Assembly: GCA_949317995.1 (NCBI GenBank)
Contig: OX439046.1
Coordinates: forward strand, 57,081,774-57,145,773
Reading direction: 5' to 3'
Length of the DNA stretch: 64,000 nt
Origin: Acholoe squamosa
Taxonomy: Eukaryota; Annelida; Polychaeta; Phyllodocida; Polynoidae
Positions 20,876 through 64,000 of this stretch are shown piece by piece. Under the pieces are notes generated by a model. The model worked only from the letters and a program-made list of their open reading frames with translations. It ran no database searches and was not told the DNA's origin. The first letter of the stretch is position 1. The number at the start of each line of letters is the position of its first letter. Made by a program: the position numbers and the translations under genes.

Positions 20876-21335
20876 ATAAGTTAATGTGTTGATCTGAAGT
20901 ATCGGTAATAATAATAACTATATTGTTATATAATAGACATATTATAACAATAAATATGGAATAATTAAGAAGACATTGGGTTTGGTGAGAATTGATTTTG
21001 TCAATACCAATCCTATACATGCCTTTATTAAATAAGACAATAATTTACAATATAATACAAACATAGCAATATATAGAATAACAATATAATACAATATAAT
21101 AGTAATATACAGATAATTACAATATCACAGTAAAGTTTAAAATGTCCAGCACCACCCAGCGTGGTGTATGCTGTCCGAGTATATGAAGCCAATTGATGGT
21201 TAGTTCAACTGCTGGAGCTTATATACTGGAGGAAAATGTTATGCGTGACGTCATAGAAAATCATGCGCCCAGACAAAGTAGTACCAACGTATCACTCATT
21301 AATTATATATATATACCTGGCAGTATATAGTCCCA
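20876..21335 (+). repeat. Tandem ~460-bp unit, copy 1
   Basis: Shares with the next unit, in order: TTAATGTGTTGAT, CGGTAATAATAA, TTTGGTGAGAATTG, CATGCCTTTATTAAATAAGA, AAAGTTTAAAAT, a CACCAC/GTGGTG hairpin, GAAGCCAATTGA, TATACTGGAGGAAA, TGACGTCATAGA, CATGCGCC and CACTCATTAATTATATATAT. No reading frame. It could be LTR-like or part of an unknown element. Confidence 0.75.
21246..21253 (+). promoter_or_regulatory. CRE-type palindrome TGACGTCA (tandem copy 1)
   Basis: Perfect TGACGTCA, a CREB/ATF site, at the same place in both tandem units. It may mark a promoter in the element; sequence match only. Confidence 0.35.
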
Positions 21336-21680
21336 TAAGTTAATGTGTTGATTGAGTGTACCGGTAATAATAAATAATGTTAAATTGATAATAGTATAAC
21401 AATAAATGTGGATAAAAGAGGAGACATTGAGTTTGGTGAGAATTGTCTTTGTCAATATCAATCCTACACATGCCTTTATTAAATAAGACAATAATTCACA
21501 ATATACAATATAATAACAATACAATTATAAATATATACATATAATCACAATATAAGACAATAACAATAAAGTTTAAAATTTTCGGCACCACCTAGCGTAG
21601 TGTGTGCCACTCGAGTATATGAAGCCAATTGACCGTTAGTTCAACTGTTGAGGCTTATATACTGGAGGAAATGTTTTGTG

Positions 21681-21688
21681 TGACGTCA
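21681..21688 (+). promoter_or_regulatory. CRE-type palindrome TGACGTCA (tandem copy 2)
   Basis: The same palindrome, conserved in the second unit although neighbouring bases differ. Confidence 0.35.
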
Positions 21689-21735
21689 TAGATATCCATG
21701 CGCCCTGGTGAAAAGTAGTACCTACGTATCACTCA

Positions 21736-21738
<3 letters not shown>

Positions 21739-21790
<52 letters not shown>
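21739..21790. repeat. (AT)n microsatellite
   Basis: Expansion of the short AT run at the end of tandem copy 1; about 26 units. Confidence 0.97.
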
Positions 21791-61330: not shown

Positions 61331-61586
61331 AAGAGTTTGGTTTCAAAACGCAATAAAAGCCATTTTGAAAAAAAGGAGCAAATATTTGAAAGGTTTGTAG
61401 GTTACAGATAGTCCAATGTAATACAGAAGCCATATTCTTTGAAAAATACAATTTTCTGCTGTCCAGAGCCCATATAATAAAGATTTCATGAAGAAAACAC
61501 AGAAAGTTACTTCAGGGGAGAATTACAAAAATGGGTATATGCTGAAAATCTGGAATGGATTTATTGCGTTTTGGAACCAAACTCTT
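61331..61586. mobile_element. MITE with AAGAGTTTGGTT inverted ends
   Basis: 256-bp element. Its left end AAGAGTTTGGTTTCAAAACG recurs inverted at the right end with about one change over 27 bases, reading on into CGCAATAAA. The paralogous unit around 48600-48640 runs from TTTTGCC to the AAAGTCCATCACTAGGG landmark without it. It was therefore probably inserted after the duplication. No coding capacity; superfamily not assigned. Confidence 0.75.
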
Positions 61587-61746: not shown

Positions 61747-62043
61747 AGGGGCAAAATTACTCTAAAATCATTATAAAGATATGTTAAGCTAATTTGTTTT
61801 GCAGAATTCAATGGTCTCATTTTGGATGCAGAAACAATGGCACAGGGCTAAGACGCGGAGGTTTGGCGCGGTCTGGGTTTTTGTTGGTTTTGTAGTAACC
61901 ATACATTACTCAACCTATATTTGTGTACAAGAATATTATGAAACCTTATACAACACTTTGAGGGATACCAGGAACTTATGGAACCTACCTCCTCGACACA
62001 TGAAGGATTTGTAAATACTCCAACGGCATGTTGATCAGAAAAT

Positions 62044-62056
62044 CCAACATGGCGGC
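62044..62056 (+). promoter_or_regulatory. YY1-like site
   Basis: CCAACATGGCGGC matches the YY1 core (AANATGGCGGC). It lies about 170-180 bp upstream of the ORF1-NADAR start, with CpG-containing sequence just downstream. In mammalian L1 a YY1 site near the 5' end sets the transcription start; the same role here is inferred only. Confidence 0.4.
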
Positions 62057-62226
62057 GCCCATGCTCGTACGTCTAGACGGTTTGTAAACAAAGCAAGATT
62101 GACTTTTCTATAGCCCAAATGGATCACAGTCCTATGCCGGAATGATTCTAAAACATTTGTGAAAGTAGTATATTGATTATAAAGTCTCTAAAAACTTGTC
62201 TTGTACCAACCAATATACGAAACCAA

Positions 62227-63729
62227 ATGCCAACGACTAGAAATACGAAACAGTCGCCCCACTCGGAGCTAGCTTCCGGCAAACCAAAAACAATGGCTGC
62301 CACTTCCGCTACGAACAAAAATACAACTTTGCAAGTAGAAATATCTGATTCTGAAGAAGAAAACGAAACTCTTCTACCCCCCCTGACCCTCAAATCGTCA
62401 ACAAAGGACATTATTGAGAAAATAAACGAAATTGATACTCGCCTACAGGTCCAAGAATCTATTGCCAGAAGGACGATTAGGCTTCTAAGTGGTATGGAGA
62501 CAAGACTCTTCGGACCAAATGGATTCCCAAATGGTAAAACTGTCACTATCCCAGAAATCGAAACAAGATTGGATGAACATAGTTCCTCTCTATCTATCCA
62601 CAGTGACAAAATTGAATCTAATACCTCAGCAACGACCAAAGCCCATTCTGAGCTTGAAAAACATGAGAATCAATTTGAAAGGTACGATCTTGATAGGAAA
62701 AGAAGAATTCTTGTTCTGGAAGGTATTGATGAGGACAAACCAGGAAGTCTTCGAGACACTTTAGACCAAATTATCAATGACCTGGGGCTTGATTTCAACA
62801 ATTCTGTGGCTGAGGCTATATATCGACGAGGTAAGAAGTATGTACCTACTGCACAACAAAAGCAAAACACTAACTTCAAAAAAAGAAATCGTCCTATAGT
62901 AGTTATCTTTTCCTCAGCCCACTACAAAATCCAGATGTTCTCTAATGTAAAAAAACTGAAAGGAAATGCTGCATGGCGTGGTCTCCACCTAGCTGATGAT
63001 ATATCCAAGGAAGAAAAACAAATCCAAAATGACCTGAGATCAATCCACGCATTGGCACGTGGTAAGGGGGTGGACTGCTCTATTAGAGGAACACAAATCA
63101 TCATAGAAGGTCATGCTTACCCATACAAGGAGCTGGGAAATTTACCTTATGATCTATCCCTACAAAATGCTAAAACTGTTCAAACTCAAGATGGTATTGC
63201 CTTCCAAAGTGAACATTCAGTATTTTCCAACCTCTACAAATCTGAAATAAAATTCGAAGGCCACACATATGACTCTGTTGAAAGAGCATACCAGGCTAAA
63301 ATGTGTGTAGTATCCAACCAAGTTCATATCCTAAGGAAGGTAAACTCTGCTGCCACACCACTTGATAGCATGTTCGCTGGACGTGCATGTAAGAAAACCA
63401 ACGATTGGTACGACATTGACGAAACTGTGATGCAGAAGCTGCTGGATATCAAATTCAGTGACCCTCTACTACTACAACAGCTAGTCCAGACCAAGGGCAA
63501 GTACCTATATGAAGCTACGCGACATCGTACATATGGGGCTGGATTCCATCTTGGACAGAAAAACGATATTAATATAAGAAATGTTGCTCATAATCAAGCT
63601 GAATGTGCCAACAAGTTGGGAGAATTTCTAATGAAAATTCGTTATGGACATACAGGTGAACAACCTCTCCCTACTGCAGAGGAAATTAGACTTCAAGACG
63701 CAGCAAGACAACAACAAGATAATCCCTAA
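62227..63729 (+). CDS. LINE ORF1-like protein fused to a C-terminal NADAR (YbiA-like) domain
   Basis: Intact 500-codon frame, TAA stop at 63727-63729; an in-frame TAA at 62149-62151 closes it upstream. The first ATG (62227) has a weak context; the ATG at 62293 (A at -3, G at +4) is a plausible alternative start. Numbering from 62227: basic, low-complexity N-terminus; acidic patch SDSEEENE near 40-47; heptad-rich coiled coil about 60-155; then an L1-type ORF1 region about 155-310 (RRILVLEGI; RPIVVIF; WRGLHLADDISKEE; a C-terminal part ending EGHAYPYKEL), typical of RNA-binding ORF1p chaperones. Residues about 322-475 match NADAR: FSNLY, YDSVERAYQAKM (Glu352), DWYDIDETVM (Trp394), IKFSDPLL, LYEAT (Glu429), YGAGF, NKLGEFLMKIR. 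The usual Asp-x-x-Trp-Gly before the glycine turn reads HRTYG here, so activity is uncertain. The family acts on ADP-ribose/N-glycosidic bonds; that the fusion binds RNA and edits ADP-ribosylated nucleic acid is inference. No ORF2 is visible downstream. Confidence 0.85.
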   Translation: MPTTRNTKQSPHSELASGKPKTMAATSATNKNTTLQVEISDSEEENETLLPPLTLKSSTKDIIEKINEIDTRLQVQESIARRTIRLLSGMETRLFGPNGFPNGKTVTIPEIETRLDEHSSSLSIHSDKIESNTSATTKAHSELEKHENQFERYDLDRKRRILVLEGIDEDKPGSLRDTLDQIINDLGLDFNNSVAEAIYRRGKKYVPTAQQKQNTNFKKRNRPIVVIFSSAHYKIQMFSNVKKLKGNAAWRGLHLADDISKEEKQIQNDLRSIHALARGKGVDCSIRGTQIIIEGHAYPYKELGNLPYDLSLQNAKTVQTQDGIAFQSEHSVFSNLYKSEIKFEGHTYDSVERAYQAKMCVVSNQVHILRKVNSAATPLDSMFAGRACKKTNDWYDIDETVMQKLLDIKFSDPLLLQQLVQTKGKYLYEATRHRTYGAGFHLGQKNDINIRNVAHNQAECANKLGEFLMKIRYGHTGEQPLPTAEEIRLQDAARQQQDNP

Positions 63730-64000
63730 CTTTCTGTATATTTCTGTACCATAACCTACGAAATCCTGGGCTAAAGTCAAACAGCTGTATTAAAAGCCTA
63801 TCAACTTTAATAGCATTACCGGTATACGGGACTGCATAAAGGCAGAAGTTCCGATATTGGTTAATTATCATAGTGGAGTAAATTGTGGGTTAATTTTTAT
63901 GTAATCCATCTGCTGTACTGATAGAGAGAAAATGGAAAGATTAATGAAACCAATTCAATGTATTATCAAATGTATTATACAAATATAAAGAAAATAGAAG
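63730..64000. other. Downstream flank of ORF1-NADAR, no ORF2 seen
   Basis: The 271 bases after the stop are AT-rich with stops in all frames. No endonuclease or reverse transcriptase reading frame begins before the window ends. No clear AATAAA signal or target-site duplication is visible. A second ORF could still begin beyond 64000. Confidence 0.6.

Follow-up and report, generated by a model that had tools for sequence, protein, structure and literature searches.

The described systems closest to the element reported here are retroelements that carry a NADAR domain of the YbiA family. A 2025 paper mentions briefly that NADAR occurs in open reading frame 1 (ORF1) of several Tx1 long interspersed nuclear elements (LINEs) of the Pacific oyster, Crassostrea gigas, and in the Pol protein of a Gypsy element of Ectocarpus, and suggests a part in RNA processing (PMC12477816). 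We found a NADAR domain at the C-terminus of the ORF1 protein of a LINE in the polynoid annelid Acholoe squamosa, in a 64,000-nucleotide stretch of contig OX439046.1 (assembly GCA_949317995.1, positions 57,081,774 to 57,145,773, forward strand; hereafter the window). The oyster elements and the window LINE are alike in having a YbiA-family NADAR within a LINE ORF1 protein, so the kind was already known from that short mention and the fusion is not wholly undescribed. They differ in that the window LINE is placed outside the L1/Tx1 group by its reverse transcriptase (RT), the oyster elements being compared by their description only. The Ectocarpus Gypsy is likewise a retroelement with a YbiA-type NADAR, but the blastp matches of its Pol outside Ectocarpus are described as almost all bacterial (PMC12477816).

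Three further systems share part of this architecture. Type II (L1-type) ORF1 proteins of the L1, CR1, L2 and R1 clades have the same coiled coil, RNA recognition motif (RRM) and C-terminal domain (CTD), whereas the window ORF1 has a NADAR in addition; in the main text of the paper on ORF1 types of the Jockey superfamily, the word "nadar" occurs 0 times (PMC4120745). The DarT1-associated NADAR (DarG1) and the P. nicotianae NADAR of structure 8bau belong to the same sequence family and share the E43, W89 and E125 positions (PMC11543638); the window NADAR differs in being fused to an ORF1 protein of RNA-binding type and in changes at K50, R93, D130 and W133 in its subfamily. Positive-strand RNA virus polyproteins with NADAR or Macro domains are comparable in that a selfish RNA element pairs such a domain with a polymerase system, but these are viruses and not LINEs, and the role given for the domain is a predicted one (PMC9503650). 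Among the matches listed in our literature search, whose coverage leaves out most subscription journals and Repbase, no other title or abstract concerned NADAR in a LINE.

A NADAR domain in the ORF1 protein of a multi-copy LINE

The ORF1 gene is one uninterrupted, stop-free frame with exactly the limits given by a sequence-only reading of the window (Table 1), and a Pfam search bore out the C-terminal NADAR proposed in that reading, with PF08719 matching residues 328-472 (E = 5.6e-15, 56.4 bits; curated cut-off 35.1). The protein was also matched by PHROG 1017 (E = 2.2e-22) and, under the cut-off of that family, by TIGR02464 (E = 1.8e-14). With the single protein as query, the PDB returned YbiA 2b3w (1e-4) and NADAR 8bau (0.03), and with a 7-copy profile E. 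coli YbiA 2b3w and NADAR 8bau were the nearest structures (1.2e-5 and 1.3e-5). The L1-type nucleic-acid-binding region, proposed in the same reading, went undetected by Pfam with the single protein and in the PDB with a profile of 12 close copies. Only when 14 diverse ORF1s were combined into a profile was it found; this profile matched human L1 ORF1p 2ykp (1e-5, over a stretch that takes in the coil) and mouse ORF1 2ldy (8e-4, beyond the coil), and by these profile matches the protein has the coiled coil, RRM and CTD of a type II ORF1.

Searching the genome (1.48 Gb, 63 contigs) with the whole protein gave 3483 first-look candidates and, from these, 86 scored matches that lie on many contigs and are 62 to 100% identical to it; 81 of the 86 reached residue 472 or further and 70 lacked an internal stop. 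Eighteen scored copies were fetched, about 10 kb each (fetched loci are designated L with a number). Two further copies, which lie in different flanks, match the window copy at 99.7 and 99.9% identity. The element is thus dispersed and multi-copy, with common ends and an A-rich 3' end as expected of a LINE, and its ORF2 encodes both an APE endonuclease (EN; Exo_endo_phos_2, 1.1e-6) and an RT (RVT_1, 8.5e-42), each above the Pfam cut-off, which agrees with the earlier expectation of a retrotransposon with multi-copy relatives followed by an ORF2 with these two enzymes. No clear target-site duplication was seen among nine copies inspected, the window copy having at most 5 nt (ATGCA) by eye. That the two halves were joined in assembly, an event that the sequence-only reading had named as fatal to its claim, or that the gene is a chance fusion or a host gene exon, has practically no probability left, because stop-free, multi-copy frames on many contigs carry the whole NADAR and young copies sit in different flanks. 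A NADAR-less relative had been suspected within the window clade, but both loci fetched for it (L123 and L124) proved to be NADAR-bearing.

Two observations concern the surroundings of these copies. Downstream of a NADAR LINE copy with a broken ORF2 lies a 1049-aa open frame (L022:6565-9714), and two ORF1 copies of the window clade (G000:C1:1944-3422 and G000:C13:3217-3687) lie no more than a few kb from contig starts.

Selection on the domain was assessed with Nei-Gojobori counts of nonsynonymous and synonymous change (dN/dS) in nine copy pairs that we chose and that share copies, a first pass having shown dS to be saturated for pairs between far subfamilies. ORF2 was set up for 9 of the 18 copies, leaving aside L012, whose ORF2 lies in three frames. 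NADAR dN/dS ranged from 0.024 to 0.079 and that of the RRM-CTD part from 0.032 to 0.105 over the nine pairs, while in the five pairs with ORF2 the ranges were 0.029-0.067 for RT and 0.047-0.084 for EN; NADAR was lower than RT in two of the five and higher in three. Values for the N-terminal part and coil were mostly above those of the other parts. Within the window's own subfamily (L009 versus L017, L018, L022 and L023), NADAR dN/dS was 0.049-0.079. These results indicate that NADAR is under purifying selection and, since its dN/dS falls in the range of RT and EN, that it is about as constrained as the element's enzymes.

NADAR-bearing LINEs elsewhere in the genome

A search of the genome with the NADAR family itself turned up 3224 loose first-look candidates. 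The 150 that were scored all exceeded the cut-off (85.9-183.8 bits) and outscored the window protein, and 94 of these lie in open frames of at least 400 aa. From the 150 scored rows we picked 12 further lineages for differing frame length, so that presence of NADAR is by choice, and fetched the two strongest matches besides. All 12 picked places proved to be LINE ORF1s (NADAR 87-98 bits). An EN-RT-like frame follows ORF1 in each by eye, several being cut at the fetched end and that of L110 split by a stop, and RVT_1 was found in all four lineages tested. NADAR lies C-terminal of the RRM-CTD region in 11 of the 12, as in the window clade, the linker being longer in L111 and L117; the exception is L109, where it is flanked by a coil-like part and a region that resembles an esterase (SASA 0.0064, under the cut-off). 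The two strongest matches, L113:1252-1920 and L114:941-1684 (both on the minus strand), are single-domain NADARs of 183 and 168 bits and apparently ordinary host genes.

This placement bears on the idea that, within the cell, NADAR destroys immune messengers or small signals of ADP-ribose and not marks on the element, an activity of the kind proposed for phage NADARs (PMC9503650). We consider it improbable, as 12 of the 13 sampled lineages (the window clade and the 12 picked) carry NADAR on an RRM-CTD-bearing ORF1, which favours a local nucleic-acid substrate, and the paper that makes the proposal for phages itself puts forward macromolecular targets for eukaryotic RNA viruses.

In some of these LINEs additional frames separate ORF1 from the EN-RT frame. 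L118, L120 and L122 have a pair of small paralogous ORFs there, which share a G-x-N-D-[LI]-C motif and make these four-ORF LINEs; L119 has one such frame and L116 looks similar by eye. The small ORFs resemble SGNH/GDSL esterases, with weak Pfam matches under the cut-off (best Lipase_GDSL_2, 0.0025, in L119). In L111 the same interval holds a 240-aa frame (L111:3302-4021), whose Pfam match to NarE (0.0011, under the cut-off) is probably due to chance.

Relationships and origin of the LINE NADARs

RT identity to the window ORF2 was compared for nine of the 12 picked lineages, the frames of L118, L120 and L122 being cut at the fetched end and omitted, and fell from 43% in L112 through 35-41% (L111, L115, L119 and L121) and 33% (L116) to 25-26% (L117 and L109) and 22% (L110). 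Against human L1 ORF2p, L110 scored 253 bits, L109 95 and the window ORF2 51, and the window ORF2 was closer to an R2 protein (56 bits). Judged from 253 versus 51 bits to the human protein, L110 is assigned to the L1/Tx1 group and the window LINE is placed outside it. L109 may represent a third LINE group; in the RT tree it joins L110 weakly and on long branches. By RT similarity, the NADAR-bearing LINEs are thus estimated to span two or three groups. L110 is probably Tx1-like, and the clade names Tx1 and CR1/L2/Jockey are used provisionally here.

Within these groups, trees of NADAR, RT and RRM largely agree. The groupings L115 with L121 and L111 with L117 are recovered and starred in all three trees, and the window with L112 is recovered in all three but starred only by NADAR. 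By RT and by RRM, L116 forms a pair with L119, and the NADAR tree has both in a single starred group of five; the RRM tree separates L120 from L118 and L122, weakly. This agreement is consistent with the fused gene having been inherited within each LINE line.

Viral NADAR loci were included in two trees, 15 of 80 in the full tree and 8 of 80 in a smaller one built without L109 and L110; 12 of the 80, with stops or duplicates, were excluded from an alignment that stands behind no result. L110 groups with the two host genes in the NADAR tree (96/87, branch 2.86), and other LINE rows are nearer to viral rows, a pattern that would speak against a single origin of the LINE NADARs. Approximately unbiased (AU) tests of one LINE NADAR clade gave p = 0.053 when all 16 rows were included, 0.0196 once L110 was left out and 0.0188 once both L110 and L109 were; in the smaller set, without both, p was 0.060, with long branches in play. 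A one-residue gap after E125, common to the LINE rows versus the two host genes, was considered as proof of shared origin and dropped, since by a rough regular expression the spacing varies among viral NADARs. A viral-contig scan for a closer source of the LINE NADAR gave 63 pattern matches and no relative among them, and the 178 phage records that matched were all below 60% identity (26.7-32.9% among the 20 matches listed).

Active site and proposed role

The role that we regard as likeliest, and put forward tentatively, is that of an ADP-ribosyl hydrolase (N-glycosidase) anchored on the ribonucleoprotein of the element. The ORF1 protein would coat the element RNA through its L1-type coiled coil, RRM and CTD, as homology suggests, and would hold the C-terminal NADAR on the particle. 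There NADAR would free bases of the element RNA or first cDNA, chiefly guanine, from ADP-ribose, which would shield the retrotransposition intermediate against ADP-ribosyltransferases of the host or the environment. NADAR would in that case be a counter-defence against host marking. The proposal starts from what was observed directly, namely the domain, its architecture, its multi-copy spread, selection on it and the kept E43 and E125. Several kinds of NADAR are reported to reverse guanosine ADP-ribosylation on DNA and RNA (PMC11125620, PMC11833690), and a guanine-N2 DNA ADP-ribosylating activity is reported from six clam species (PMC11209040). The annelid genome itself gave 37 matches (not 37 genes) to PARP catalytic domains, from which guanine marking by PARPs here does not follow. 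ZAP is a PARP-family protein. Its restriction of LINEs in human cells is not direct support for the proposed role, because the zinc-finger part is reported to be sufficient (PMC4423928).

We compared active sites in an alignment of 16 LINE rows, four of them from the window clade, and the two host genes, using as reference the P. nicotianae NADAR of known structure (8bau; its identity as this protein was read from residue numbering) with residue roles taken from PMC11543638. Equivalents of E43, W89 and E125 (E352, W394 and E429 in the window copy) are kept in all 16 LINE rows, including the four of the window clade. At K50 the 16 rows have Lys (11), Arg (2) or Met (3), and the Met rows all belong to the window's subfamily; Lys is found in L019-L021, L024, L123 and L124. 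Directly before this position all 18 fetched copies have a Lys (K358 in the window copy). The window copy keeps Arg at R79, and over the 16 rows D130 is Asp in nine and W133 is Trp in six. The two host genes keep K50, R79, D130 and W133 and do not keep R93; considered over the whole site, they match the P. nicotianae residues except at the Y84, D86 and R93 positions.

Several of these comparisons, in the window's own line and beyond it, weigh against hydrolysis of guanine marks. Met occupies K50 in 14 of the 18 fetched copies (M359 in the window copy) and Lys in four, and in the E. coli C7 NADAR the equivalent Lys is described as essential for efficient hydrolysis, with Arg tolerated in vitro and failing to rescue cells (PMC11543638). 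In the window clade R93 is replaced by Asp, D130 by His and W133 by Tyr (Y436 in the window copy), so that this copy has neither Lys or Arg at K50 nor the phosphate contacts of R93, D130 and W133. Only seven of the 16 LINE rows have a basic residue (Arg or Lys) at R79, eight having Asp there, and R93 is Arg in three. NADARs not associated with DarT are allowed other substrates in the same account (PMC11543638). Our search for transferases covered PARP only.

Because the K50, R93, D130 and W133 positions are changed, the NADAR of the window subfamily may be altered in substrate or weakened. A broader form of this idea, which we think somewhat unlikely as an account of the LINE NADARs, is that the domain is a binding module or one of altered specificity, recognizing ADP-ribose, NAD-capped or otherwise modified RNA, or another N-glycosidic substrate, without guanine de-ADP-ribosylation. 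It would accommodate the four replacements in the window subfamily together with selection that is nevertheless strong there, and YbiA is reported to act on riboflavin intermediates (PMC11543638), but both catalytic carboxylates are retained in 16 of 16 rows and Lys or Arg stands at K50 in 13. A use of NADAR by the element to process or repair its own RNA, with host defence not involved, is the function suggested for the Ectocarpus Gypsy and oyster Tx1 elements (PMC12477816), and we rate it as quite unlikely for the LINEs considered here.

Features of the window

Coordinates of the LINE and its parts are collected in Table 1. Immediately upstream of the element is a 27-nt inverted repeat (window 61331-61357 and 61560-61586; 96% complementary, 202 nt apart), and elsewhere in the window a 436-nt unit occurs in two tandem copies (20876-21752; 81% matches).

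Table 1 Parts of the NADAR-bearing LINE, in window positions
Feature	Position	Strand	Basis
ORF1 (NADAR-bearing ORF1 protein)	62227..63729	+	One stop-free 500-aa frame
NADAR domain, aa 328-472	63208..63642	+	Pfam, PHROG, TIGR02464, PDB profile, active-site alignment
L1-type RRM and CTD region, aa 156-312 (borders set by us)	62692..63162	+	Profile of 14 ORF1s against 2ykp/2ldy; alignment of 15 ORF1 rows
Probable coiled-coil region, about aa 60-155	62404..62691	+	Profile of 14 diverse ORF1s against many PDB coiled coils, including the L1 ORF1p coil; without a dedicated coiled-coil predictor
LINE, portion within the window (whole element 5448 bp, extending beyond the window end)	61831..64000	+	Common 5' boundary GAAACAATGG and A-rich 3' end across copies in different flanks
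5' untranslated region of the LINE	61831..62226	+	Common 5' boundary up to the ORF1 ATG
ORF2 start (960 aa from Met at 63958; EN and RT), cut by the window end	63958..64000	+	Read in L009:4732-7611; Pfam

Implications

As far as we searched, what is new beyond the oyster elements is a NADAR-bearing LINE of a non-Tx1 clade, the breadth of such LINEs within one genome, the data on selection and the split in active sites. NADAR matches are abundant in this genome, and 12 of the 14 fetched are transposon genes, which carries a risk of misleading gene annotation.

A wider scenario, possible in our view though on the unlikely side, is that, within one host lineage, LINEs belonging to several clades adopted NADAR as a regular part of ORF1 that clears ADP-ribose from the RNA or cDNA of the element itself. 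They would then stand for the transposons in an arms race over ADP-ribosylation, in which subfamilies drift in substrate (for the window's line, at K50, D130 and W133) as the transferases of the host change. Should the domain prove active, transposons and their hosts would be in conflict over nucleic-acid ADP-ribosylation, and NADAR-bearing LINEs would mark where such modifications are made. What NADARs do physiologically in eukaryotes, including animals, has been called unclear (PMC11125620), and these LINEs offer a testable case for NADAR function in animals.
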